Assembly: GCA_021738605.1 (NCBI GenBank)
Contig: JAIPBY010000003.1
Span: forward strand, 1-33,899
Source of the DNA: Chitinophagaceae bacterium
GTDB taxonomy: Bacteria; Bacteroidota; Bacteroidia; Chitinophagales; Chitinophagaceae
DNA length: 33,899 nucleotides
Direction: 5' to 3'
The notes beneath the pieces are model-generated. The model worked only from the letters and a program-made list of their open reading frames with translations, was not told where the DNA came from and did not search any database. Shown piece by piece: positions 1,600 to 33,522 of the stretch (positions are counted from its first letter, which is position 1; each line of letters starts with the position of its first letter). A program made the translations under genes and the position numbers.

Positions 1600-1603
1600 A
1601 CCA

Positions 1604-2074
1604 ATGGCAGAAGACCTACATATCGGCAGTGGCAGCAAGGAGCAACAATACCTTTCATTGCTTCCCCAAATCAAGGGCTTGCTCAACGGCGAAACAGACC
1701 TGGTAGCCAATCTTGCCAATATCGCAGCCGCACTAAAAGAACAATTTCATTTTTTTTGGGTAGGCTTCTACCTTGTCAAAGCAGACGAACTCGTACTTGG
1801 CCCTTTTCAAGGACCAGTTGCATGTACCAGGATAAGGAAAGGAAGGGGTGTTTGTGGAACATCATGGAGTCAGGCCACTACCATCATCGTTCCGGATGTA
1901 GAAAAATTTCCCGGACATATCGCTTGTAGCAGCATTTCCAAAAGTGAAATCGTTGTGCCCCTGTTCAAAAACAATGAGGTTTGGGGTGTTCTTGATGTGG
2001 ACAGCGACCAGTACAATTCCTTTGACGAAACGGATGCACGATTCCTGCAGGAAATTGTAACACTCATCCCCTAG
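1604..2074 (+). CDS. msrC: GAF-domain free methionine-(R)-sulfoxide reductase
   Basis: GAF fold with FFWVGFYLV, LGPFQGPVACTRIRKGRGVCG and HIACSSISKSEIVVP; the three fRMsr cysteines are present. Confidence 0.9.
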   Translation: MAEDLHIGSGSKEQQYLSLLPQIKGLLNGETDLVANLANIAAALKEQFHFFWVGFYLVKADELVLGPFQGPVACTRIRKGRGVCGTSWSQATTIIVPDVEKFPGHIACSSISKSEIVVPLFKNNEVWGVLDVDSDQYNSFDETDARFLQEIVTLIP

Positions 2075-3033
2075 CCGTCCGAGCCTGCACTGGCGTTCAG
2101 GTTCATCAGCATGTCTGCGGTCATCTTGGCCAAATCAAACTCAGGCTTCCATCCCCAGTCCTCACTGGCCTTGGAATCATCAATGCTCTTTGGCCAGCTG
2201 TCGGCAATTTGTTGGCGATAATCTGGTTTAAAGTCCAGCTGAAATCCTGGAATATGTTTCCTGATTTCATCGCCAATTTCTACAGGTGAAAAGCTCATTC
2301 CTGAAAGGTTGTAGGAAGTCCTCACTTTTATTTTTTCGGCAGGAGCCTCCATCAGTTCAATGGTTGCCCTGATGGCATCAGGCATATACATCATGGGCAA
2401 ATGGGTATCTTCCCTCAGAAAGCTGGTATACTTTTGCTTTTCTTTTGCGGCATGAAATATCTCAACAGCGTAATCAGTGGTTCCCCCACCTGGTGATGAT
2501 TTGTAACTGATCAACCCAGGATAACGCAAGCTCCTTACATCCACCCCATACCGTTGATAGAAATAATTGCACCAGAACTCCCCTGCATATTTGCTGATGC
2601 CATAAACCGTTGTGGGCTCGATAATGGTATATTGAGGGCATTCATCTTTGGGGGATGTTGGTCCAAATACAGCGATGCTGCTGGGCCAATACACCTTGGT
2701 CAGCTTTTCCTCTTTTGCGATATCCAGTACATTCAGCAAAGACTGCATGTTGAGATGCCAGGCCAATGGTGGATTTTTTTCCCCTGTCGCAGAAAGAATG
2801 GCAGCCAATAGATAAACTTGTGTAATGTTCTGCCGGATGATCTGCACATGAAGCATTTCCTTGTTCATCACATCAAGGCTTACATAAGGCCCCGTGCCTT
2901 TCAGTAATTCATTTTCTTCCCTGAGGTCTGAAGCAACAACATTGGCTCCACCATATATTTTTCTCAAAGCCAGGGTGAGTTCTACCCCAATTTGACCGCT
3001 AGCGCCAATGACAAGTATTTTCTCTTTTTTCAT
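2071..3033 (-). CDS. SDR-type NAD-dependent L-threonine 3-dehydrogenase-like epimerase
   Basis: ILVIGASGQIG Rossmann motif, SSIAVFGP, YGISK, RYPGLISY. Start trimmed from 3063 to Met at 3033 because a perfect TAnnTTTG element lies at 3057-3064. Confidence 0.85.
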   Translation of the reverse strand: MKKEKILVIGASGQIGVELTLALRKIYGGANVVASDLREENELLKGTGPYVSLDVMNKEMLHVQIIRQNITQVYLLAAILSATGEKNPPLAWHLNMQSLLNVLDIAKEEKLTKVYWPSSIAVFGPTSPKDECPQYTIIEPTTVYGISKYAGEFWCNYFYQRYGVDVRSLRYPGLISYKSSPGGGTTDYAVEIFHAAKEKQKYTSFLREDTHLPMMYMPDAIRATIELMEAPAEKIKVRTSYNLSGMSFSPVEIGDEIRKHIPGFQLDFKPDYRQQIADSWPKSIDDSKASEDWGWKPEFDLAKMTADMLMNLNASAGSDG

Positions 3034-3056
3034 ATATGTCCTATTCGTTGAATATG

Positions 3057-3064
3057 CAAACATA
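3057..3064 (-). promoter_or_regulatory. Putative Bacteroidota -7 element (TATGTTTG) for the epimerase gene
   Basis: Plus strand reads CAAACATA; 8/8 match to TAnnTTTG. No clear -33 element. Confidence 0.5.
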
Positions 3065-3089
3065 AGACAAGTGACTGTATCTTCGCAGT

Positions 3090-3911
3090 ATGGAGCCGTT
3101 TCTTAAAGACCTGTTTGCCACACAACAATACGATGAAAGCAATTTTTTTCTGATTGCGGGGCCTTGTGTAATCGAAAGCAAGGAAGTATTGAATACTGTT
3201 GCCTCCGGGGTGTCGGCCATTTGTAAGAACCTGGGTATTGCTTATGTCTTCAAGGCCTCCTACAGAAAGGCCAACAGAACCAGTGCAGCCTCCTTTACAG
3301 GCTTGGGAGACGACCTTGGCCTGAACCTTCTCAGGGATACAGGCAATGCATTTTCATTGCCTACGACCACAGATATACATGCGGCAGATGAAGCTGCAAT
3401 GGCAGCGCCCTTTGCTGACATCCTGCAGATTCCCGCATTCCTATGCAGGCAGACCGATCTTCTTGTTGCTGCTGGCGAAACAGGCAATATCATCAATATA
3501 AAAAAAGGACAATTTGTAAGTGGTGAAGCCATGAAATTTGCCGTAGACAAGGTCAGAAAAACCGGCAACAACAACATCATCCTGACAGAAAGGGGTACCA
3601 GTTTTGGCTACCAAGACCTGATTGTTGATTACAGGAATATCCCGATCATGCAATCGCATGGAGTGCCCGTTGTGATGGATTGTACCCATGCCCTTCAACA
3701 ACCCAACCAAACAGCTGGCGTAACAGGAGGAAATCCACACATGATTGGAACCATTGCAAAAGCCGCTGTCGCGACAGGTGCGGATGGCTTGTTCATTGAA
3801 ACACATCCTGAACCATCAAAAGCATTGAGCGATGGGGCCAATATGCTACACTTGGACAAACTCGAAGATTTGCTGAAGCAACTGATCCGAATAAGGAAGG
3901 CAATTGTTTAG
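3090..3911 (+). CDS. kdsA: 3-deoxy-8-phosphooctulonate synthase (KDO8P synthase)
   Basis: FFLIAGPCVIESKEV, FKASYRKANRTSAASFTG, LTERGTSFGYQDLIVDYRNIPIM, DCTHALQQPN. Confidence 0.96.
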   Translation: MEPFLKDLFATQQYDESNFFLIAGPCVIESKEVLNTVASGVSAICKNLGIAYVFKASYRKANRTSAASFTGLGDDLGLNLLRDTGNAFSLPTTTDIHAADEAAMAAPFADILQIPAFLCRQTDLLVAAGETGNIINIKKGQFVSGEAMKFAVDKVRKTGNNNIILTERGTSFGYQDLIVDYRNIPIMQSHGVPVVMDCTHALQQPNQTAGVTGGNPHMIGTIAKAAVATGADGLFIETHPEPSKALSDGANMLHLDKLEDLLKQLIRIRKAIV

Positions 3912-4153
3912 CTGTAGCGCAGTGGGTTTCTTTTTGACTGAAAAATGTAGCGCTTCAGATTCATCCAAAAAGCAAGGATAAAATAAAAAACCACCGGTGA
4001 ACCCAAGGTGAGGCAGGAGATGTACATGAAGTATTTCCGGATGGTGAAAGTGGGTATGCCCATCTTCTCACCAATCCTGGCACAGACTCCAAAAACCTGC
4101 CATTCAATGAAATTCCTGAGTTTTTCCATACTCCAAATATAATTAATCCCCAT
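3908..4153 (-). CDS. PspC domain-containing small membrane protein
   Basis: FGVCARIGEKMGIPTFTIRKYFMYISCLTLGSPVVFYFILAFWMN is PspC-like. Start may be the internal Met (MEKLRNF) rather than 4153. Confidence 0.75.
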   Translation of the reverse strand: MGINYIWSMEKLRNFIEWQVFGVCARIGEKMGIPTFTIRKYFMYISCLTLGSPVVFYFILAFWMNLKRYIFQSKRNPLRYS

Positions 4154-4165
4154 TATATCATCAAG

Positions 4166-4197
4166 TTTGGTAAGCGCCCCTTAATTAATTAATTTTG
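4166..4197 (+). promoter_or_regulatory. Putative Bacteroidota promoter for aconitase: TTTG-N20-TAATTTTG
   Basis: TTTG at 4166-4169, 20-nt spacer, TAATTTTG at 4190-4197 (8/8 to TAnnTTTG), 63 nt before the ATG. Confidence 0.7.
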
Positions 4198-4260
4198 CAG
4201 CGCCTTTACTCTTAAGCCGGAGTTGAGGGGAACATCATAAAACAAGAAAAATCAAATTCC

Positions 4261-6525
4261 ATGGTATTCGATCTTGACCTCATTAAGAAGACCTACAGTG
4301 AAATGCCCGCCAAAGTGGATGCAGCAAGAACTGCGTTGGGTCGCCCACTCACGCTTGCGGAGAAAATACTTTATGCCCACCTTTGGAAAGGTGTTGGAAT
4401 CACAGATTTTGAAAGGGGTAAAGCCTACGTTGATTTTGCTCCAGACAGGGTTGCCATGCAGGATGCCACCGCACAGATGGCACTCCTTCAGTTTGACACC
4501 ACCGGCCGCAAAAAAGTTGCCGTGCCTTCCACTGTTCACTGCGATCACCTGATTGTGGCAAAAGATGAAAGCAAAACTGACCTGAAGAAAGCAGTAACAG
4601 AAAATGAGGAAGTATATGAATTCCTTTCCTCTATCTCCAATAAATATGGCATTGGCTTCTGGAAGCCCGGTGCTGGCATCATCCACCAGGTTGTGTTGGA
4701 AAACTATGCATTCCCCGGTGGAATGATGATTGGTACAGATTCCCATACCGTGAATGCCGGTGGATTGGGCATGGTGGCCATTGGTGTTGGCGGCGCGGAT
4801 GCATGTGATGTAATGGCTGGCCTCAGCTGGGAACTCCTGATGCCCAAGCTGATCGGAGTAAAATTAACCGGAAAATTGAATGGCTGGACTTCACCCAAAG
4901 ATGTAATCCTCAAAGTGGCAGGTATTCTTACTGTAAAAGGTGGAACCAACGCCATTGTTGAATATTTTGGCGAAGGTGCAACCAGCATGAGTTGTACCGG
5001 GAAAGGCACCATCTGTAACATGGGTGCTGAAATTGGTGCCACTACCTCTACCTTTGGCTATGACGAAAGCATGGCAAGGTACCTGCGTTCTACAGGAAGG
5101 GCAGACGTTGCAGCTGCAGCGGATGAAGTAAAGTCCTATTTGACCGGCGATGAAGAAGTCTATGCCAACCCTGAAAAATATTTTGATAAGGTCATTGAGA
5201 TCAACCTCAGCGAATTGGAGCCACACCTGAATGGCCCCTTCACGCCAGACCTCGCAACCCCTATTTCACAAATGAAAGAGGCCGCTGCAAAAAACAACTG
5301 GCCTACCAAAGTTGAGGTTGGTTTGATTGGCAGCTGTACCAATTCATCTTATGAAGACATCAGCCGTGCGGTAAGCCTTGCAAAACAAGTGGCAGAAAAG
5401 GGATTGAAAACCAAGGCTGAATTCACCATCACACCAGGCAGTGAACTGGTGCGGTATACCATCGAAAGAGATGGATTCCTTGATACTTTTGCTGAAATCG
5501 GTGCAACTGTATTTGCCAATGCCTGCGGACCCTGTATCGGCATGTGGGACAGGATGGGTGCAGAAAAACAAGAGAGAAATACCATCGTGCATTCTTTCAA
5601 CAGGAACTTTGCCAAACGTGCTGATGGCAATCCCAATACACTGGCATTTGTGGCCAGCCCAGAAATTGTAACTGCATTGGCCATTGCCGGAGACCTTACC
5701 TTCAACCCACTTACTGATACGCTGATCAATGAAAAAGGTGAAGCCGTAAGGCTTGACCCACCCAGTGGTGATGAATTGCCAACCCGTGGATTTGATGTGG
5801 GAGATGCAGGATACCAGGCTCCTGCAGCAGACGGTAGCGGCGTACAAATCAATGTGAAGCCTGACAGCAAGCGTCTTCAACTGCTCTACCCCTTTGCTGC
5901 TTGGGAAGGAACTGACCTGAAAGGGCTGAAACTCCTGATCAAAGCAAAAGGCAAGTGTACCACAGACCATATCTCTATGGCTGGCCCATGGTTGAAATTC
6001 CGTGGACACCTGGACAACATCAGCAACAACATGCTGATCGGTGCACAGAATTTCTTCAATGAAAAAACAGACAATGTAAAAAACCAGCTCACCGGTGAAT
6101 ACGGAACCGTTCCTAATACACAGCGTGCGTACAAAGCTGCAAATGTTGGAACAATCGTGATTGGTGATGAGAACTACGGCGAAGGTTCTTCGAGGGAACA
6201 TGCAGCCATGGAGCCCCGTCATCTCGGCGTCAAAGTAGTGATGGTAAAATCATTTGCGAGGATCCATGAAACCAACCTCAAAAAGCAAGGCATGCTCGCA
6301 TTAACCTTTGCCAACAAGGAAGATTACAACAAGATTCAAGAAGATGACAACATTGATGTTGTTGGACTGACTTCATTCACACCAGGTCAATCATTGCATG
6401 TGGTCCTTAACCATGCCGATGGAACTGCTGAAACAATTGAGGCCTACCACAGCTACAATGCCCAGCAGATTGACTGGTTCAAGGCAGGTGGCGCATTGAA
6501 TGTGATCAGGGCGAACAGCAAATAG
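4261..6525 (+). CDS. acn: Aconitate hydratase
   Basis: [36 protein letters not shown] (4Fe-4S cysteines), [19 protein letters not shown] swivel motif. Confidence 0.97.
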
Positions 6526-7282: not shown

Positions 7283-9613
7283 ATGCATACCAAAGGTTTT
7301 CACAATAAAGTTACCACAAGATTCACGTTCGCTTTGCTGACCCTGATGGGCTGTATTTCAATGGTTCAGGCTCAAGTAGCTCAAACACCCGGAGAGGCCC
7401 GTTTGGCTAGCCTTGAAGCCAAAGCAAAGAAGGCAGCAGCAAGCAGTTTGAAGGATGTTACCTTCCGAAACATCGGACCAACTGTCATGAGTGGAAGGAT
7501 TGATGATATAGAGGTAAATCCCAATGACCCAACTGAATTTTATGTTGCTTATGCCACCGGTGGATTATGGCATACCGCCAACAATGGCCAAAGCTTCACC
7601 CCCATTTTTGACAATGGGCTGGTGATAGGTATTGGAGACATTGCGGTCAATTGGAAGACACGCACCATCTGGGTAGGAACTGGTGAAGTGAACAGCAGCC
7701 GTTCCTCATACGCAGGTATTGGCATCTACAAGAGCAATGACAATGGCAAGACCTGGCTTTATCTTGGCCTTCCTGAAACACAACATATTGGCAAAATAAC
7801 GCTGCACCCCTCAAACCCTGATATTGCCTGGGTTGCAGCCTTGGGACATTTGTACAGCACCAACAAGGAAAGGGGTGTTTTCAAAACAACCGATGGTGGA
7901 AAATCATGGAAACAAACCCTGTTTGTTGATGAAACAACAGGGGCCGTTGAGATGGACATCAATCCCAAAAATCCGAATGAACTCTATGCCTCAACCTGGC
8001 ACCGCATCAGAAAAGCCTGGGACTTCACTGAGGGTGGAAAAACATCTGCCATTTATAAGAGCAATGATGGCGGCAAAACTTGGAAGCTCTTGACCAATGC
8101 AGCATCTGGCTTCCCACAAGGCGATGGCATCGGAAGAATCGGCCTGGCCGTCTACCCACAAAATCCATTCATTGTGTATGCAGTAGTAGATAATTACAAC
8201 CTGAAGCCAGATACGTCAAAGACCCCCAAACCCAATACAGGTGCAGGTCCTGCAGCCAATCAGATTTATGGCTGCGAGGTATACAAGAGCATGGACGGCG
8301 GAAAACACTGGAACAAGACCAATGAAAAGAACATTGAGATCTACAATACTTTCGGCTACTATTTTGGCAAGATCTTTGTATCCCCCACCAACCCTGACAA
8401 GGTTGTCATCTTAGGAACCAGTGCCAATCTTTCTACTGATGGCGGAAAATCCTTCACCTCCATGGACAAGGGCAATACCCATGCAGACTGGCATGCACTA
8501 TGGATCAATCCCAAAAGAGACGATCACATGATTGCAGGAAACGATGGAGGATGCAACATCAGTTATGATGCTGGTAAGAACTGGTTCAAAGCCAATTCTC
8601 CTTCAGTAGGACAATTCTATGCCATCAATGTTGACAATGAAAAACCTTACAATGTGTATGGAGGATTGCAGGACAATGGCTCCTGGTACGGAAAATCCAC
8701 CAACAAGGAATCAATAGACTGGACAGATGAGGGGCAGTATGGATTCAAGAGAATGGGCGGTGGTGATGGCATGCAGGTACAGATTGACCCGCGTGACCAC
8801 AATACCGTTTACACGGGTTCTCAGTTTGGGGCCTACATGCGCATCAACAAGCAAAACCAGGGTCCTAAATTCCTGAGGCCTGTTCCCCAGAATTCAAAAG
8901 AAGAAAAGCCCCGGTTCAACTGGCAAACACCCATCCTCTTGTCCAAACACAATCCTGATATTCTTTACATGGCGGGGAACAGTTTGTTCAGAAGCATGAA
9001 CAGGGGTGATGATTTTGAACGGATCAGCGGAGACCTGTCGAATGGAAAAAAATCTGGCGACGTGCCCTTTGGTACAATGACCAGCATCAGTGAATCACCC
9101 TTAAAGTTTGGATTGATCTATACAGGAACTGATGATGGGGTTGTTTCACTTACAAAGGATGGAGGCAATACCTGGACCAAACTGTCAGGACTGCCCCAGG
9201 GTTTGTACATCAGCCGCGTACTGGCCTCTAGCCACCTGCAAAGCCGCGTTTATGTTACCATGAACGGATACCGGGATGATCACTTTGCTGCTTATGTTTA
9301 TTGCAGTGATGACTTTGGCAAAACTTGGAAGAAACTGGGCAACGACCTGCCCATGGAACCGGTGAATGTCATTCGTGAAGATCCAAAATCATCCACCATT
9401 CTTTACCTGGGTACTGATGGCGGTGCATACGCAAGCACTGACGACGGCACATCCTTCATGCAATTCACCAATAATTTGCCCATTGCCATTCCCGTGCACG
9501 ACATGGTGATTCAAGAAAGGGAGAATGAAATCGTGTTAGGCACTCATGGGAGAAGCCTGTATATTGGCAAGCTGGACCTGATCCAGAAAATGGTCATTAA
9601 AGAGACTAAATAA
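7283..9613 (+). CDS. Secreted BNR/Asp-box (VPS10/sortilin-like) beta-propeller protein
   Basis: Signal peptide-like N-terminus (FALLTLMGCISMVQAQ); many Asp-box motifs (SNDNGKTW, TTDGGKSW, SNDGGKTW, SMDGGKHW, STDGGKSF, TKDGGNTW, SDDFGKTW, STDDGTSF). Confidence 0.88.
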   Translation: MHTKGFHNKVTTRFTFALLTLMGCISMVQAQVAQTPGEARLASLEAKAKKAAASSLKDVTFRNIGPTVMSGRIDDIEVNPNDPTEFYVAYATGGLWHTANNGQSFTPIFDNGLVIGIGDIAVNWKTRTIWVGTGEVNSSRSSYAGIGIYKSNDNGKTWLYLGLPETQHIGKITLHPSNPDIAWVAALGHLYSTNKERGVFKTTDGGKSWKQTLFVDETTGAVEMDINPKNPNELYASTWHRIRKAWDFTEGGKTSAIYKSNDGGKTWKLLTNAASGFPQGDGIGRIGLAVYPQNPFIVYAVVDNYNLKPDTSKTPKPNTGAGPAANQIYGCEVYKSMDGGKHWNKTNEKNIEIYNTFGYYFGKIFVSPTNPDKVVILGTSANLSTDGGKSFTSMDKGNTHADWHALWINPKRDDHMIAGNDGGCNISYDAGKNWFKANSPSVGQFYAINVDNEKPYNVYGGLQDNGSWYGKSTNKESIDWTDEGQYGFKRMGGGDGMQVQIDPRDHNTVYTGSQFGAYMRINKQNQGPKFLRPVPQNSKEEKPRFNWQTPILLSKHNPDILYMAGNSLFRSMNRGDDFERISGDLSNGKKSGDVPFGTMTSISESPLKFGLIYTGTDDGVVSLTKDGGNTWTKLSGLPQGLYISRVLASSHLQSRVYVTMNGYRDDHFAAYVYCSDDFGKTWKKLGNDLPMEPVNVIREDPKSSTILYLGTDGGAYASTDDGTSFMQFTNNLPIAIPVHDMVIQERENEIVLGTHGRSLYIGKLDLIQKMVIKETK

Positions 9614-9619
9614 GCCTTT

Positions 9620-10042
9620 TTAGAGGCCTTTGAGGTATTGAGCAGCAAGTGCATAGCCATCAAGACCAAGCCCGCAAATCGTCCCCTTTGCCTTTGCAGA
9701 CACATGGGAGATTTTCCTGAATTCCTCGCGGGCATGCACATTGGAAATATGTACTTCGATTACTGGTGCTGTGATCGATGCAATGGCATCACCAATGGCG
9801 ACAGAGGTGTGCGTATATCCTCCAGGATTGAGGATGATGCCATCGGCAGAAAATCCTGCTTTCTGGATGGCATCAATCAATTCACCTTCAATATTGGATT
9901 GAAAATAATCAATCACCAGATCTGGGTTGGACTCCTTCAACTTTTCAAGATAGGATTCGAAACCCTCACTCCCATAGATACCCGGCTCCCGCTTGCCCAG
10001 CAAGTTCAGGTTGGGTCCGTTGATGATGGTGATTTTTTTCAT
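9620..10042 (-). CDS. aroQ: Type II 3-dehydroquinate dehydratase
   Basis: ITIINGPNLNLLGKREPGIYG, ILNPGGYTHTSVAIGDAI, EVHISNVHAREEFR, GLGLDGYALAAQYL. Confidence 0.97.
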   Translation of the reverse strand: MKKITIINGPNLNLLGKREPGIYGSEGFESYLEKLKESNPDLVIDYFQSNIEGELIDAIQKAGFSADGIILNPGGYTHTSVAIGDAIASITAPVIEVHISNVHAREEFRKISHVSAKAKGTICGLGLDGYALAAQYLKGL

Positions 10043-10044
10043 GT

Positions 10045-11139
10045 CTAGTTGTTGTTGATCAGGTTGATGAAATCATCAAAAAGATAACGGCTGTCGTGGG
10101 GTCCAGGTGTTGCCTCCGGATGGTACTGCACTGAAAAAGCAGGACGGTCCTTGAGCCTTATGCCTTCAATAGAATCATCATTGAGGTTGATATGGGTAAC
10201 CTCAATTTGTTCCGCACTTCTGACAGCGTCGGCGTCAACAGCGAAACCATGGTTCTGTGTAGTTATCTCACAAAGGCCGGTCATCAAATTCTTGACGGGA
10301 TGATTCAAGCCCCTGTGTCCATGGTGCATCTTGAAAGTTTTGATGCCATTGGCCAGTGCCAGAAGCTGATGCCCCAGACAGATGCCGAAAACAGGCTTTC
10401 TTGTATCAAGAATCTTTTTAACGGTATCTACTGCATAATCCATAGAGGATGGATCGCCAGGGCCGTTTGAAATAAAGAAACCATGGGGTTCAAAAGCAAG
10501 CAGTTCTTCAAAGCTGGTCTTGGCAGGATGAACCCTGACATAAGCACCCCTATCGGCCATGCACTGGATGATATTTCTTTTGACACCAAAATCAAGCACT
10601 GCAATACGAATGCTGGCAGATGGATCACCCACATGGTACACTTCTGTGGTAGAAACAACTGAAGCCAATTCCAGGCCATCCATGGAGGGCACTTTTTTCA
10701 AGGCTTCCATCAAAGCCGCAACATCTGTACTCTCAGAAGAGATGATGCAGTTCATGGCACCTTTTTCACGGATATGTGTCACAAGGGCTCTTGTATCAAT
10801 GTCTTCAATGGCAACTACCTGCTGGTTGACCAAGTAGTTCTGCAAGGAATCATCCGCCATCAACCTGCTGTATTTTTCTTCAAGGTTTCTGCCAATAAGA
10901 CCCTTGATCTTCACTGTTTCACTTTCCACATCCCCTGCTTTCACGCCATAATTACCGGTATGCACGTTGTTCATGATCAGCACCTGCCCGAAATAACTGG
11001 GGTCTGTAAACACTTCCTGATAACCGGTCATTCCGGTATTGAAACAAAGTTCACCAGAAGCAGTTCCAATTTTACCAAATGAACGGCCATGAAAAACCAT
11101 TCCATCTTCCAAAATAAGCAAGGCGGGGACTGAATTCAT
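10045..11139 (-). CDS. carA: Carbamoyl-phosphate synthase small subunit
   Basis: ALLILEDGMVFHGRSFG, GMTGYQEVFTDPSYFGQVLIMN, FISNGPGDPSSMDYA, FGICLGHQLLALA, FSVQYHPEATPGPHDSRYLFDDF. Start at 11139 or 11154, since the ORF start at 11193 lies inside a terminator. Confidence 0.95.
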   Translation of the reverse strand: MNSVPALLILEDGMVFHGRSFGKIGTASGELCFNTGMTGYQEVFTDPSYFGQVLIMNNVHTGNYGVKAGDVESETVKIKGLIGRNLEEKYSRLMADDSLQNYLVNQQVVAIEDIDTRALVTHIREKGAMNCIISSESTDVAALMEALKKVPSMDGLELASVVSTTEVYHVGDPSASIRIAVLDFGVKRNIIQCMADRGAYVRVHPAKTSFEELLAFEPHGFFISNGPGDPSSMDYAVDTVKKILDTRKPVFGICLGHQLLALANGIKTFKMHHGHRGLNHPVKNLMTGLCEITTQNHGFAVDADAVRSAEQIEVTHINLNDDSIEGIRLKDRPAFSVQYHPEATPGPHDSRYLFDDFINLINNN

Positions 11140-25746: not shown

Positions 25747-28086
25747 ATGATGATACCCATACAATTGAAAAAAGCCTCCAAAAAAAAGATTTTGGTAGTA
25801 TCTGCTGGACTGATGCTGATCGGTCTAACCCTTTATTTCATCACTTCTGGGAAAGAGGAAGAAGGTGGTGTGCCTGATGTGGTGGATTTCAATTTTCATG
25901 TCAGGCCTATCCTGTCTGACCGTTGCTTCAAGTGCCATGGGCCTGATGCCAACAAAAGACAAGCCAATCTTCGGTTGGACACTGAAGAAGGGGCCTACGC
26001 TGCATTGAAAGAAGATCCTTCTAAACATATTATTGTTCCTGGAGATCCCATGCAATCTGCCTTGTATGCCAGGCTGATTACTGCTGACACTGCTGAAGTT
26101 ATGCCTCCCCCATCCTCCAATCTCAGCTTGACCAAAAATGAAATTGAGATCATTAAAAAATGGATTGCCCAGGGTGCCAAATACAAAAAACACTGGTCTT
26201 TCATAGCACCTGTCAGGCCCAAAGTGCCTGAGGCGGACGAAGACCTCAACCCAAGAAACCCCATCGACCATTTTATTTTCACGACCCTGGACAAAGTGGG
26301 CTTGGAGCCCAATGCTGAAGCATCAAAAGAAGCTTTGCTGAAAAGGGTTTCCATGGACATTACCGGGCTTCCTCCTACCATTGAACAACAAGAGCGGTTT
26401 CTTGCCGACAAGTCTCCCAATGCATATGAAAAAATTGTAGATGAATTGCTGGCCAGCAAACACTATGGCGAGAAAATGGCCATCCAATGGATGGACCTTG
26501 CGCGTTATGCCGATAGCCATGGCTACCAGGATGATGGCTTACGTACCATGTGGCCTTGGCGTGATTGGGTTATCCATGCCTTTAACAGCAATTACCCCTA
26601 TTCCAAATTTCTCACCTGGCAATTGGCGGGCGACCTGCTCCCCAATCCGTCTAAAGAACAATTGCTGGCAACTGGCTTTAACAGGAACCATAAGATTACC
26701 CAGGAAGGTGGTGTGATTGATGAAGAGTACAGGATTGAATATGTAACCGACAGGACCAATACCGTTGGCAAGGCATTCATGGCCATCACGTTGGAATGTG
26801 CCAAATGCCATGACCACAAATACGATCCTGTATCACAAAAAGACTACTACAGCATGTTTGCGTTTTTTGACAAGGTTCCGGAAAAAGGGCTTGTCGGTAC
26901 CATAGATGCCTCTTTTGCAGATCCTCCCAGCATGAAAATCAGTACTGCAGACGTTTCCTCCATATTGGCTTTTATCAACAAAAAAGACACGATGGATGTA
27001 TCCGTGATGGTCATGAAAGACAGTGTTGGCATACGGGAAACACAGCTGCTCAGAAGAGGTGTGTACGATCAAAAAGCAGATACTGTTCAGATGGCTACTC
27101 CGGCTTCCATCCTAACGTATAACCCCAAAAAATATGAGCAAAACAGGCTAGGCCTGGCAAAATGGATGATCGATCCTCAAAACCCATTGACAGCAAGGGT
27201 TTATGTGAACAGGATCTGGCATGAGCTCTTTGGACGTGGGCTGGTGAAGACTTCAGGGGATTTTGGGATGCAGGGAGAACTGCCCTCACATCCTGAATTG
27301 CTTGACTGGCTGGCAGTTGAGTTCAGGGAATCCGGATGGGACATCAAAAAACTCATCCGATTGATTGTCACCTCCTCTACCTACAGACAATCGGCCCAAA
27401 GGACATCAGACAAATTCCAAAAAGATCCTGACAACAAATACTATAGTTTCTTTCCAAGGCTCAGGCTAAGTGCTGAACTGCAACGCGATTTACTGCTTAC
27501 TGCATCAGGCATTTTGAATCCAGAAATTGGCGGACCCAGTGTGAAACCCTACCAACCCAAAGGCGTATGGGAAGCCACTACCTCCGGCAGGGGCGAACTG
27601 GCCAAATATATCCAGGACAAGGGCGACAAACTGTACAGAAGAGGTTTATACAATTTCATCAAAAGAACGGCTCCTCCACCAGCTTTGCTGATCATGGATG
27701 CAAGCACAAGGGATCAGTGTGAAGTGACAAGATCAAGAACCAATACACCCCTCCAAGCATTGGTATTGATGAATGATCCACAATTGCTGGAAGCCGCGAG
27801 GGTATTGGCCCAGCGCACTTCAAACCTGAACCTTTCCGAAGACCAAAAACTGGATAGGTTATTCAGGCTGGTGCTTTGCAGAAAAGCCAACGAGAAAGAA
27901 ATGAAAATGCTCAAAGGATATTACCTCCAGGAAAAAAACAAATTCATTCAGCAGAAAGACAAGGCTGAAGGATTCTTGAAAGCAGGAGAATTTGAGCAAA
28001 TTAAAACGAAGAATATCGCTGAAACAGCTGCATTGATGCAGGTGAACCAGATGATTTTCAATTTGGATGAAACCACTGTAAAATAA
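25747..28086 (+). CDS. PSCyt1-DUF1549-DUF1553 'planctomycete cytochrome' protein
   Basis: N-terminal TM anchor; NFHVRPILSDRCFKCHGPDANKRQANLRLDTEEGAYA (PSCyt1); PIDHFIFTTLDKVGLEPNAEASKEALLKRVSMDITGLPPT...ECAKCHDHKYDPVSQKDYY (DUF1549); RVYVNRIWHELFGRGLVKTSGDFGMQGELPSHPELLDWLA (DUF1553). Confidence 0.95.
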   Translation: MMIPIQLKKASKKKILVVSAGLMLIGLTLYFITSGKEEEGGVPDVVDFNFHVRPILSDRCFKCHGPDANKRQANLRLDTEEGAYAALKEDPSKHIIVPGDPMQSALYARLITADTAEVMPPPSSNLSLTKNEIEIIKKWIAQGAKYKKHWSFIAPVRPKVPEADEDLNPRNPIDHFIFTTLDKVGLEPNAEASKEALLKRVSMDITGLPPTIEQQERFLADKSPNAYEKIVDELLASKHYGEKMAIQWMDLARYADSHGYQDDGLRTMWPWRDWVIHAFNSNYPYSKFLTWQLAGDLLPNPSKEQLLATGFNRNHKITQEGGVIDEEYRIEYVTDRTNTVGKAFMAITLECAKCHDHKYDPVSQKDYYSMFAFFDKVPEKGLVGTIDASFADPPSMKISTADVSSILAFINKKDTMDVSVMVMKDSVGIRETQLLRRGVYDQKADTVQMATPASILTYNPKKYEQNRLGLAKWMIDPQNPLTARVYVNRIWHELFGRGLVKTSGDFGMQGELPSHPELLDWLAVEFRESGWDIKKLIRLIVTSSTYRQSAQRTSDKFQKDPDNKYYSFFPRLRLSAELQRDLLLTASGILNPEIGGPSVKPYQPKGVWEATTSGRGELAKYIQDKGDKLYRRGLYNFIKRTAPPPALLIMDASTRDQCEVTRSRTNTPLQALVLMNDPQLLEAARVLAQRTSNLNLSEDQKLDRLFRLVLCRKANEKEMKMLKGYYLQEKNKFIQQKDKAEGFLKAGEFEQIKTKNIAETAALMQVNQMIFNLDETTVK

Positions 28087-28090
28087 GATC

Positions 28091-29542
28091 ATGGAAAATC
28101 AGGAGAAACAATTCAGGCTGAACGTTACCAGAAGACATTTTCTAACCAAAGCCGGATTGGGATTTGGAAGCGCCGCACTGGGCTCAATGTTGTTCAAGGA
28201 CCAATTGTTTGGAGCTGATGCACAATCCTCAATACCTTTGGGATTGGCACAGTATGCACCTAAAGCCAAACGGATCATTTATCTTTTTCAGAATGGTGCC
28301 CCTTCCCAGTTGGAAACATTCGACTACAAACCCTTGCTCAACAAGATGCATGGTGAAGAATTGCCAGCCTCCATTCGCATGGGCCAGAGGCTTACCGGCA
28401 TGACTGCCAACCAGGAAAAATTTCCACTTGTTGGCTCTTCATTTGGATTCTCACAACATGGCAAGTCTGGCGCATGGATATCAGAACTTTTTCCCAACAT
28501 TGCTTCCATTGCTGATGATATCTGTATTGTCAAAACAATGAATACAGAAGCCATCAACCATGACCCCGCCCTGACATTTTTCCAAACAGGGGCACAACAG
28601 GGCAACAGGCCCAGCATGGGTGCATGGATGAGCTATGGACTGGGAAGTGAAAATTCTAACCTCCCTTCCTATACAGTTCTTCTCTCTCGTGGCCGTGGAA
28701 ATGGACAGGGTGTTTATTCAAAATTATGGACCAACGGCTTTCTGGACAGCGTTCACCAGGGCGTTGTGTTCAGCAGCGGTGACGATCCAGTACTTTACCT
28801 CAACAATCCTGAAGGGCATGACAAGCAAAGCCGGAGAGACATGCTCGACCAGCTGGCAAAATTCAATGCAGAAGCATTCGACAATTTTGGGGACCCTGAA
28901 ATCAATACCCGCATCAAACAATACGAAATGTCTTACCGCATGCAGAGTGCGGTGCCTGAACTGACAGACCTGAGCAAGGAGTCTGATAATACCATCAAAA
29001 TGTATGGCCCGGATTGCCTTGTGCCTGGCACTTACGCAGCCAACTGTTTGCTGGCCAGAAAGCTCTCTGAATCTGGCGTTCGTTTTGTGCAACTTTACCA
29101 CCAGGGATGGGATACGCATGGCAACCTGGTCAATGACATGAGGATGCAGGCAGAAGACGTAGACAGGGCTTCTGCTGGCCTGATCAAGGACTTGAAGCAA
29201 AGGGGACTGCTGGATGAAACACTGGTGATTTGGGGTGGTGAATTTGGACGGACCAATTATTGCCAGGGCAAGATTGATGGGGCCAACTACGGTCGCGACC
29301 ATCATCCCAAATGCTTCAGCATCTGGATGGCCGGCGGTGGAATCAAACCGGGCACGGTATATGGTGAAACAGATGAATTCGGCTACAATACCATCAAGGA
29401 TCCAGTAAGCGTGCATGATTTTCATGCCACCGTACTCCACCTGATGGGCATCAACCATGAGCAGCTCACCTATCGCCATCTGGGAAGACGTTACAGGCTC
29501 ACAGACGTTGCCGGACAAGTAGTGAACGGAATTATTGCCTAA
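28091..29542 (+). CDS. DUF1501 family protein with Tat signal
   Basis: TRRHFLTKAGLGFGSAALGSMLF Tat motif; AKRIIYLFQNGAPSQLETFDYKPLL, GWDTHGNL, VIWGGEFGRT, GRDHHPKCFSIWMAGGGIKPGTVYGETDEFGY are DUF1501 hallmarks. Confidence 0.95.
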   Translation: MENQEKQFRLNVTRRHFLTKAGLGFGSAALGSMLFKDQLFGADAQSSIPLGLAQYAPKAKRIIYLFQNGAPSQLETFDYKPLLNKMHGEELPASIRMGQRLTGMTANQEKFPLVGSSFGFSQHGKSGAWISELFPNIASIADDICIVKTMNTEAINHDPALTFFQTGAQQGNRPSMGAWMSYGLGSENSNLPSYTVLLSRGRGNGQGVYSKLWTNGFLDSVHQGVVFSSGDDPVLYLNNPEGHDKQSRRDMLDQLAKFNAEAFDNFGDPEINTRIKQYEMSYRMQSAVPELTDLSKESDNTIKMYGPDCLVPGTYAANCLLARKLSESGVRFVQLYHQGWDTHGNLVNDMRMQAEDVDRASAGLIKDLKQRGLLDETLVIWGGEFGRTNYCQGKIDGANYGRDHHPKCFSIWMAGGGIKPGTVYGETDEFGYNTIKDPVSVHDFHATVLHLMGINHEQLTYRHLGRRYRLTDVAGQVVNGIIA

Positions 29543-29566: not shown

Positions 29567-31729
29567 ATGTCTAGACATCTTCTCGTGCTCTCCAACCTGC
29601 TGATCGTATTACAGGTTTTTCTTCTTTTGTTCTGTTTTTTAGACCTGAGCGTACTTCCACAGATTATATTGTTTGTAGGAAGATTTCATCCTGTTGTACT
29701 GCATTTGCCCATTACGTTAATCATTTTGTTGGTCCCCTTCTCTGTTTACCTCCAAAAAAGGACAGATACCGATGGTCTTACTGGCATATTTGATTTGATG
29801 CTTCACTACATCGCATTGATTTCAACGCTTACTGCACTTGCAGGATTTTTGCTGGCAGCAGATGGCGGATACGATCAGGAGTCACTCCGTGTTCATAAAT
29901 GGCTTGGTGTTGCCGTCGCTTTTTCAACACATGCCCTTGTGTACATCAAAAAAACATTTGCACAAAACGCCATGGTATGGAACATTGCCATGTCTGCCAC
30001 CCTAATTATCATGGTCGCGGGAAGTCATTATGGCGGAAACCTGACACATGGCGAAGGATTCTTTGCATTCAATAAAGAAAATAAACCAACCATCACCATC
30101 CCTGTGTTTACAGAAAAAACAACGGTTTACCAGGGTGCTGTTCAACCCGTTTTGGAAGCCAAATGCATCACCTGCCACAACGATAAAAAAATGAAGGGTG
30201 GACTCAACCTCAGTGCTTTTCAGGCGGCGGCCAAGGGTGGGAAAAATGGAGCAGCATGGGTTTCAGGAGATCCTGATAAAAGCTTGATGATTGAAAGGAT
30301 GCTACTTGACATGGACGATCAAAAGCACATGCCACCCAAAGGAAAAGCCCAGCTCAGTAGTGTAGAAATTCTTTTGTTCAAGGAATGGATCAGGGCAGGC
30401 GCCAATCCAACCAAGACCTATCACTCCCTCGCAGCTACCGACACCCTCAAAACAATTGTCAGCAGCATCATCAATGTTGCACCGGTAGAAAAAGCAACCA
30501 AAACATATTCTTTTTCGGCCGCCTCCACCTCTACTATCGAGCAGCTCAATTCTCCCTTCAGGAGAATTCTTCCACTGGCCTCCAACTCACCTGCCCTGAG
30601 TGTCAAATTTTATCTCAAAGAAAAATATGACCTGAACATGTTGAAGGAATGCAAATCCATCGCGGAGCAGGTTGTTGAAGTCAATCTCTCCAACATGCCT
30701 GCCGATGACAAGGCCATAGAAGTGCTTTCTTCCTTTGAAAACATTGAGCGCATCAACCTCAATGGAACTGCCATTTCTGGCAAGAACCTGGGTGTATTAA
30801 AATCCAACAAACACCTTGAACAAGTTTCACTGGCCAGCACAGCAGTTGGTTTTGCCATGCTGGATGCGTTAGGAGCCATCCCTTCGCTAAAAAATGTTTT
30901 CCTCTGGAATACTGCACTCACTGCTCCTGAGTTGGATGCCATCAAGAAAAAGTTTCCAAAAATCAATTGGGATCTTGGCTATATTCCAGACAAGAATGAA
31001 TTGCTCAAACTGACAGTCCCGAGATTGCTCGATGCAGACAAAAGGATTTATTCACCTGGTGAACTCATTGCCTTCAAGCCCCAGATGTCTGGCGTTCAGA
31101 TCCGTTATACCATTGACGGCTCCAAACCAGATTCATTGGCCAGCATATTGTACACCAAGCCATTCCCTGTCATTGGTATGATGAAACTCAGGGCTATTTC
31201 GGTCAGCCCTGGATGGAAAACAAGTGATACAACTGACAATACTTTTTTCCTCAAAGGTTTTAAGCCTGACTCCATCAGGATGATCAATCAGGCAGACAAA
31301 CAATACAAAGGACAGGGCGCAATTACCCTTACAGACCTTGTGAAGGGCGGTCCAGGCAACCTCAATGTCAATTGGTTGGGATATCGCGACAACTCTTTCA
31401 AAATTGGTGCCTATTTTTCAAAGGGCGAAGACATCCAGCAAATCCTGCTCAGCACGGTAGAACACATTGATGGATATATCATGCCCGCAAAAAAAATCAT
31501 CATCAAAGGCGGCGACTCACCAACATCGATGAAGCTGCTCAAGACGATTGTTCCGGAACAGCCCAAGGAGAAAAGAAGAAGACACCTCATCCCATTTGTG
31601 ATTCCATTGGAGAAAAAACAATACAAATACTTTGAAATTGAAGCATTCCCAGTCAATGTATTGCCCAAATGGCATCCCGGAAAAGGCGATAAGGGATGGG
31701 TCTTTGTTGACGAGTTGTTTTTTTATTGA
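29567..31729 (+). CDS. DUF2231-like membrane protein with c-type heme (PSCyt1-like), LRR-like and chitobiase-C-terminal-like domains
   Basis: FVGRFHPVVLHLPITLIILLVPF (DUF2231); VQPVLEAKCITCHNDKKMKGGLNL; VNLSNMPADDKAIEVLSSFENIERINLNGTAISGKNL; IRYTIDGSKPDSLASILYTKPF. Confidence 0.88.
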   Translation: MSRHLLVLSNLLIVLQVFLLLFCFLDLSVLPQIILFVGRFHPVVLHLPITLIILLVPFSVYLQKRTDTDGLTGIFDLMLHYIALISTLTALAGFLLAADGGYDQESLRVHKWLGVAVAFSTHALVYIKKTFAQNAMVWNIAMSATLIIMVAGSHYGGNLTHGEGFFAFNKENKPTITIPVFTEKTTVYQGAVQPVLEAKCITCHNDKKMKGGLNLSAFQAAAKGGKNGAAWVSGDPDKSLMIERMLLDMDDQKHMPPKGKAQLSSVEILLFKEWIRAGANPTKTYHSLAATDTLKTIVSSIINVAPVEKATKTYSFSAASTSTIEQLNSPFRRILPLASNSPALSVKFYLKEKYDLNMLKECKSIAEQVVEVNLSNMPADDKAIEVLSSFENIERINLNGTAISGKNLGVLKSNKHLEQVSLASTAVGFAMLDALGAIPSLKNVFLWNTALTAPELDAIKKKFPKINWDLGYIPDKNELLKLTVPRLLDADKRIYSPGELIAFKPQMSGVQIRYTIDGSKPDSLASILYTKPFPVIGMMKLRAISVSPGWKTSDTTDNTFFLKGFKPDSIRMINQADKQYKGQGAITLTDLVKGGPGNLNVNWLGYRDNSFKIGAYFSKGEDIQQILLSTVEHIDGYIMPAKKIIIKGGDSPTSMKLLKTIVPEQPKEKRRRHLIPFVIPLEKKQYKYFEIEAFPVNVLPKWHPGKGDKGWVFVDELFFY

Positions 31730-33522
31730 TGACCAACCGTCTATCCATATTTTCCAATTTAATCCTTGTATTGCAGGTTTTTTTGGTGTTGCTCTGCTTT
31801 GCAGACCTGAGTTCATTGCCTTCCACTGTTTTATTTGCCGGCAGACTTCATCCACTGATTTTGCATCTGCCGATCACCCTTATTCTTTTGCTCCTCCCGA
31901 TTTCTTTATATGCAGCCAATAGCAAAGAACAAAAAAACATTGTAGCATTTTTTCAACTGTTGCTTCATGGTGTAGCATTGATTTCAACATTAACAGCCAT
32001 AACAGGTTTCTTTCTTGCAGCAGGTGGATCATATGATGCTGATTCACTTTTCATACACAAATGGCTTGGGGTTTCTATCGCCTTACTTAGCCATGCCCTC
32101 ATCTACCTATACAATCTGCTGCATACAAAACCAATGGTTTGGAATACCTTCCTGGCATTAACCATTTTGATTGCAGTCGCTGGGGGGCACTTTGGCGGTA
32201 CACTAACACACGGTAAAAGTTTTTTTAGTTTCAGCAACAACAGAAAAGCTGTTTTGGCGAATCAATCTGAAACCGAAAAAATATATCCTTTTGCCGCCGC
32301 TTCAACATCTTCGATTGAAAAATTGAACAATCCTTTCAGGAGGGTATTGAAGGTTTCAGCAAAAAGTCCAGCCCTTGTTGTAAAGTTCTCACTAAAGGAA
32401 AAGTTTGACATTGAACAATTGAAAGCCTGCAAAGAAATTGCTGAACAAATTGTAGAGCTGAACTTGTCAGGCATGCCGGTTGATGACCAGGTTTTTCCAA
32501 TACTTGCGGGTTTTGTAAACCTTGAAAAACTAAACCTCAATGCAACATCCATTTCAGGTGTTGGGATCAACGCATTAAGCGGATTAAAAAAACTGGAACA
32601 ACTTTCTGTGGTAAACACCGCTGTTGGTCTGCAAGCAATTTTGCCACTGATCAATATGGCATCACTCCAGCATGTTTTCATTTGGAATACAAGGATTGAA
32701 GCCCAAGATCTTGTGCTGCTGAAGACCAAGTCACCCAAGATCAAGTGGGAAATAGGCTATCAGGCAAACAAAAATGAAATCCTGCAATTATCTCCCCCTT
32801 ATCTTGAAGACAATGAAAACCTCATCTTTGAAAAAGGATTGAGTATTGCATTGAAAAATCCATTTCCCAATGCAAAGATCCGGTATACCACTGATGGATT
32901 AGACCCTGACTCAAGCAATGGAAACATATATACTAAAGCAGTCTATACAAAGGAATTGTTGAGAATCAAGGCCGTTACCACATTAGAAGGCTGGATTACA
33001 AGTGCAATTACAGACTTCACTGTCTATCCAAAAGGCATTGCATGTGATTCCGCAACCCTTTTGAGCAAACCGAACAGGGGCAGAACTTTTGGAGCAAAAA
33101 TACTCATTGATGGTAAGAAAGGATACAGCCAGACCGCTGATCAATTGTACAACAGTTGGCTTGGCTTCAAAAAAGAAGACTTTAAGGCAGGTTTTCATTT
33201 TGGAAGCAATCCAATCCTACAGCAAATTGTGGTAAGCACTGCAGACATGACCAATTCCTCCGGAGCATCGGTTTTTCCTCCCACCAAAATAACCATCAAG
33301 GGTGGAGAAAATGCCAAAAAGATGAAAACAATTGGGGTCCTTTCCCCAGATATGCCCCTCATGCGCAGGCCCAATGCATCCATCCCTTATGTCATCCCCA
33401 TTAAACCGGGCAAATATCCCTATATTGAAATAGAAATGTTGACACTGAAGTCACTTCCCGAATGGCACCAGGAAAAGGGGCAAAAGGGGTTTGTATTTTT
33501 GGATGAAGTGTTTTTTTATTAA
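31729..33522 (+). CDS. Tandem paralog of the preceding gene lacking the heme c module
   Basis: FAGRLHPLILHLPITLILLLLPI; LRR-like block; IRYTTDGLDPDSSNGNIYTKAVY; C-terminus GFVFLDEVFFY parallels GWVFVDELFFY. ATG at 31729 (the track's 31726 start is TTG). Confidence 0.88.
   Translation: MTNRLSIFSNLILVLQVFLVLLCFADLSSLPSTVLFAGRLHPLILHLPITLILLLLPISLYAANSKEQKNIVAFFQLLLHGVALISTLTAITGFFLAAGGSYDADSLFIHKWLGVSIALLSHALIYLYNLLHTKPMVWNTFLALTILIAVAGGHFGGTLTHGKSFFSFSNNRKAVLANQSETEKIYPFAAASTSSIEKLNNPFRRVLKVSAKSPALVVKFSLKEKFDIEQLKACKEIAEQIVELNLSGMPVDDQVFPILAGFVNLEKLNLNATSISGVGINALSGLKKLEQLSVVNTAVGLQAILPLINMASLQHVFIWNTRIEAQDLVLLKTKSPKIKWEIGYQANKNEILQLSPPYLEDNENLIFEKGLSIALKNPFPNAKIRYTTDGLDPDSSNGNIYTKAVYTKELLRIKAVTTLEGWITSAITDFTVYPKGIACDSATLLSKPNRGRTFGAKILIDGKKGYSQTADQLYNSWLGFKKEDFKAGFHFGSNPILQQIVVSTADMTNSSGASVFPPTKITIKGGENAKKMKTIGVLSPDMPLMRRPNASIPYVIPIKPGKYPYIEIEMLTLKSLPEWHQEKGQKGFVFLDEVFFY

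Follow-up and report, generated by a model that had tools for sequence, protein, structure and literature searches.

Some freshwater Bacteroidota have, in one operon, a gene for a membrane-anchored cytochrome whose head resembles a sugar-binding module, and beside it an old heme-less sister gene. Our reading, to which we assign a probability of about 0.58, is that the sister gene (copy B) is an old second copy that lost its heme c once, and that its product now acts as a membrane and glycan-recognition subunit beside the heme-bearing copy (copy A, or HEME). The pair was studied in a window of 33,899 nucleotides, which is one contig of a draft genome (2.0 Mb, 74% complete). Since only the heme domain was removed from the sister gene, the membrane and recognition parts were kept and the electron carrier was not, which suggests that copy B was kept for recognition rather than electron carrying. 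Some aquatic bacteria have PSCyt/PSD1/DUF1501 operons in abundance, and PMC5615132 describes their function as unknown. A heme-deleted paralog, whose counterpart in some relatives has kept its heme, separates the selected parts (the membrane histidines and the sugar-binding-like head) from a dispensable heme c, and offers a natural pair for probing these systems.

All genes of the operon lie on the forward strand. The first (25747-28086) encodes a 779-aa protein with PSCyt1, PSCyt2 (DUF1549) and PSD1 (DUF1553) domains (Pfam E 1.5e-14, 2e-87 and 4e-100, respectively) and CXXCH motifs at residues 60 and 351; in the relatives, the gene order around it matches that of the window. It is to be noted that the second CXXCH, inside PSCyt2, is retained by almost all relatives, and that the protein matches the SO2930 diheme cytochrome family below threshold. 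The next gene (28091-29542) encodes a DUF1501 protein of 483 aa (Pfam E 5e-155), which is 97-99% identical to its counterparts in the closest relatives and probably carries a twin-arginine signal (RRHFLTKAG), its NCBIfam TAT match being under the cut-off. The two membrane proteins follow, as had been listed in an earlier, sequence-only reading of this DNA: HEME, of 720 aa (29567-31729; defined by ORF, Pfam, AlphaFold2, and sequence and fold matches), and copy B, of 597 aa when counted from its ATG, or 598 from a TTG three bases upstream (31729-33522; defined by ORF, Pfam, BLASTP and ortholog alignment). The stop codon of HEME and the start codon of copy B overlap in a TGATG sequence (31727-31731), so placed that translational coupling is possible. 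HEME has the same domain and the same partners (PSD1/DUF1549 and DUF1501) as the PSCyt1 (PF07635) proteins of known PSD1/DUF1501 operons; copy B differs from the planctomycete PSCyt1 proteins in missing their defining domain.

Comparison of the two copies by BLASTP produced two collinear blocks. One matched residues 1-197 of both proteins (49% identity, E 4e-43), the true match stopping near residue 172, and the other matched HEME residues 304-720 to copy B residues 176-597 (42%, E 5e-111), covering the whole LRR/chitobiase/F5-8C ectodomain. As the likeness spans all domains but the heme, it is neither due to chance nor a one-domain match, and the proposal that the proteins are paralogs through their membrane, LRR and chitobiase-like parts, down to the C-terminal ends FVDELFFY (copy A) and FLDEVFFY (copy B), was indeed confirmed. 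Missing from copy B are about 128 residues with the PSCyt1 heme-c domain: BLASTP of the pair found no counterpart to HEME residues ~173-310, and Pfam found no PSCyt1 match. Copy B instead has the same membrane domain, the short linker RKAVLANQSETE, and then the LRR, Fn3_assoc/CHB_HEX_C and F5/8C-like parts; both copies score above the cut-offs of 22 and 23 for Fn3_assoc/CHB_HEX_C_1 (PF13290/PF13287), with 35.7 and 42.6 bits in HEME and 30.3 and 36.3 bits in copy B. In the DNA, the missing segment (HEME residues ~173-309, the PSCyt1 module between two flexible linkers) corresponds to about 30085-30495 by BLASTP, alignment and AlphaFold2 pLDDT, and within it the CITCH heme-c attachment motif (HEME residues 200-204, from the ortholog alignment) lies at 30164-30178. 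These positions agree with the sequence-only reading, which had also recognized the replacement of the heme module by a short linker. None of the seven heme-free orthologs examined contains a CXXCH, and the deletion boundaries are identical in all seven. That the copies differ by the precise in-frame removal of one module is supported by these alignments.

The domain plan of HEME consists of the membrane domain (residues 1-165), a linker, the PSCyt1 heme-c domain (residues 200-259; 54.4 bits in Pfam against a cut-off of 22, E 2e-14), a second linker, the LRR (residues ~330-478), Fn3_assoc/CHB_HEX_C (residues 505-560), and an F5/8C-CBM32-like part (residues ~565-720). All 35 aligned heme-bearing homologs have the CXXCH motif, and H254 and W274 are likewise invariant among them. 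In the AlphaFold2 model of HEME, with a mean pLDDT of 87.9, values below 50 were found at residues 168-173 and 307-310, and these low-confidence linkers flank precisely the segment that copy B is without.

The membrane domain was modeled by AlphaFold2 as a five-helix bundle with a mean pLDDT of 91. Five of its histidines (H41, H46, H110, H154, H161) are present in every heme-free ortholog that has sequence at the site and are conserved in nearly all homologs, heme-bearing as well as heme-free; by the order of the helices in the model, they would lie near the periplasmic face. When compared with the PDB by Foldseek, the domain matched nothing at E <= 0.001, the best hit being a designed bundle at E 0.34, and no match to a known b-type cytochrome fold was obtained. 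As no PDB fold matched, it is the conserved histidines themselves that suggest a heme b or quinone site. In Pfam, the domain scored 14.1 bits for DUF2231 (PF09990) in HEME and 25.8 bits in a short heme-less relative (L102), against a cut-off of 26.4, and copy B had no match at E 0.1. Our searches retrieved no solved relative of DUF2231 and the literature searched gave no function for it; likewise, in a literature of mostly open papers, nothing was found on the function of this domain combination in Bacteroidetes. In the ectodomain, HEME residues 505-719 matched residues 562-774 of the GH20 beta-hexosaminidase BT0459 (6q63) by sequence (E 6e-34), and the same protein came out on top of the fold search, with F5/8C/CBM32-type folds among the matches; the modeled ectodomain may have a sugar ligand. 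Both window proteins share the CHB_HEX_C_1 plus F5/8 type C module of BT0459, but the catalytic GH20 domain is missing from both, leaving the accessory module only.

A heme-free copy occurs in seven of the 41 compared genomes of the genus (G000, G017, G006, G004, G030, G002 and G009). It stands directly behind the heme copy in five of them and also in G030, where it is itself interrupted by a contig break, and it begins at a contig end in G009. Most of the remaining genomes have a single copy, with heme, and the gene order PSD1 - DUF1501 - HEME. In all 13 of the compared genomes that have sufficient sequence there, the last copy is adjoined by the same 574-aa ORF (read as dnaG). All close genomes are draft MAGs, labeled mostly Chitinophagaceae, with several contig breaks inside the repeats; isolate names point several of them to lakes. 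The heme motif CXXCH is borne by the other full-length homologs in the genus and, with the exception of L172 and L211, by full-length relatives outside the heme-free group at the 80 best Bacteroidota loci. These two were considered as split heme-less genes and rejected, since their CXXCH is intact in another frame, which identifies them as frameshifts.

The sequence-only reading had envisaged a duplication followed by loss, or gain, of the heme module, and had asked whether single-copy relatives bear the heme. They do, and so do two-copy relatives (both copies of L139/G063 and copy B of G036), because of which the direction is read as loss. A gain by copy A, which is suggested by the two-gene comparison only, is contradicted, since outgroup homologs across Bacteroidota have heme, as does copy B in both G063 and G036; such a gain is scarcely credible. 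The tree used for polarity was built with the heme columns left out; in it, the seven heme-free proteins formed one clade (100/100) nested within the heme-bearing proteins, so that the module was lost once; by this topology, the deletion is placed before the divergence of the seven genomes.

The other part of that reading, a recent local duplication, did not hold, since in the per-domain trees copy B does not branch as sister to its tandem neighbor. In the C-domain tree, the sister of the heme-free clade was copy B of G036 and L139 (100/99), followed by G011/G032. Forcing the heme-free clade together with its neighbors cost 137.5 log-likelihood units in the C-domain (p-AU 1.4e-96) and 26.8 units in the N-domain (p 0.005), for which the trees have poor resolution and are perturbed by what looks like gene conversion in L139/G036; recent in-place duplication was rejected by these AU tests. 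Since copy B groups with the heme-bearing second copies of other species, the duplication (or acquisition) is older than those species. The state before the deletion is shown, as judged from its sequence, by L139 (= G063:C114), in which DUF1501 is followed by HEME proteins of 721 and 727 aa in tandem, both with CXXCH at residue 200. G036 appears to be in the same state over two contigs, one with the N-terminus of copy A behind DUF1501 and the other with a heme-bearing copy B before dnaG; the 90.6% identity over 267 overlapping bases indicates separate copies, unless strains are mixed. Copy B of G036 contains one stop codon, about 50 bases off a contig end. As DUF1501 is too conserved to resolve relationships, gyrB, rpoC and rpoB were used, and in their tree G036, G063, G016 and G027 grouped apart from the group with the heme-free copy. 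The simplest account would be that the A/B duplication preceded the split of the species groups, after which B was lost in G016 and the heme of B in the window's group.

Copy B might alternatively have come from outside, if a divergent, heme-bearing ortholog from a G011/G036-like species recombined into the operon behind the resident copy and then lost its heme, with no old vertical duplication. The C-domain of copy B indeed groups with the single-copy G011/G032 proteins and with copy B of G036/G063, and in G011/G032 it is a B-type ectodomain that occupies the first place after DUF1501. The operon, moreover, seems able to move: G032 (L084) lies deep in the gyrB/rpoC/rpoB tree, yet its operon groups with that of G011, a sign of horizontal transfer or of a MAG that is mixed. 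However, two copies are present at the same place in G036 and G063 too, and with the A/B arrangement common to sister species groups, an old duplication and loss needs no repeated transfer. We therefore consider such an acquisition unlikely, though it deserves to be kept in mind.

Estimates of dN/dS were 0.10-0.17 for the heme-free copy (six orthologs); the heme copy gave 0.08-0.14 and DUF1501 0.01-0.02. The heme-free gene is open in all seven genomes, contig breaks aside. By these indications, the heme-free gene is retained as a working protein under purifying selection. A portion of the ancestral protein is gone, as would be seen in a decaying pseudogene, but the open frames and the dN/dS values contradict decay, which is very improbable. 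In the L139 pair (1602-3767 and 3906-6089), the heme modules are 92-98% identical and the C-terminal halves 35-62%. The window's heme copy is merely 65-78% identical to the L139 modules over the same windows; constraint alone is thus insufficient to explain their likeness, and this two-heme array appears to homogenize its redox half by gene conversion.

The course of events that we favor would start from an ancestral operon of PSD1/PSCyt, DUF1501 and a membrane cytochrome, in which the last gene was doubled with heme in both copies. The PSCyt1 module of the second copy would later have been deleted in-frame, once, between two flexible linkers, in the ancestor from which the window's species group descends, and the membrane domain and the glycan-recognition-like ectodomain would have been kept under purifying selection. 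The product would be an inner-membrane subunit without heme c, its LRR/chitobiase-like/F5-8C head facing the periplasm. The histidine cluster would bind heme b or quinone, the ectodomain a glycan, and the PSCyt1 heme would exchange electrons with the PSD1/PSCyt protein; copy B would retain the histidine-site and glycan functions, and depend on its neighbor for the c-type heme link to PSD1/PSCyt. Copies A and B are most likely parts of the same complex, and a heterodimer, as already suggested in the sequence-only reading, is plausible from the TGATG overlap and the co-conservation of the two. It is also conceivable, if rather doubtful, that gene conversion keeps the redox half (membrane and heme c) alike while the recognition half diverges, so that the window's copy B would lend its head and histidine site to a mixed complex, in which two recognition subunits share a single c-type heme.

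A part for copy B outside redox chemistry, as a scaffold, an anchor or a sensor of glycans working apart from HEME, the histidines serving in folding or metal binding, would fit the heme-less, ectodomain-only ORFs upstream of HEME in seven related loci and the heme-free TM-LRR proteins behind DUF1501 in L100 and L102; such heme-less companions suggest that extra recognition heads are useful alone. Against it, all five membrane histidines are retained and the HEME and copy B genes overlap, and we think it less likely, though a serious alternative, than the reading of copy B as a subunit working next to the heme-bearing copy. As to published systems, PSCyt proteins are reported to be abundant in freshwater Verrucomicrobia, with unknown function and in some cases a CBM; the pertinent sections of that report (PMC5615132), on another phylum, describe no heme-less tandem paralogs.

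Related loci showed further variation. In the seven mentioned above (L177, L180, L183, L189, L190, L194 and L206), the ORF immediately upstream of HEME is ~262-288 aa long and has a signal-peptide-like start and solely the Fn3_assoc/chitobiase C-terminal/F5-8C-like module; in L190 it occupies 5208-5996, with a beta-propeller ORF between it and DUF1501. The second 'HEME-like' ORF of L170 was dismissed as a copy, since it is a GH20 hexosaminidase with only the C-terminal module in common; this gene (8224-10524), which ends in that module, lies directly downstream of HEME. A paralogous operon (L100, 197-5900; L102, 9884-15521) encodes a PSD1 protein of ~1060 aa, which contains Laminin_G_3 in L100, a DUF1501 protein, and a TM-LRR protein without heme and without the chitobiase-like module. 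Lastly, the PSD1 gene is present as a tandem duplicate upstream of DUF1501 in L084 (G032) and L104 (G036).
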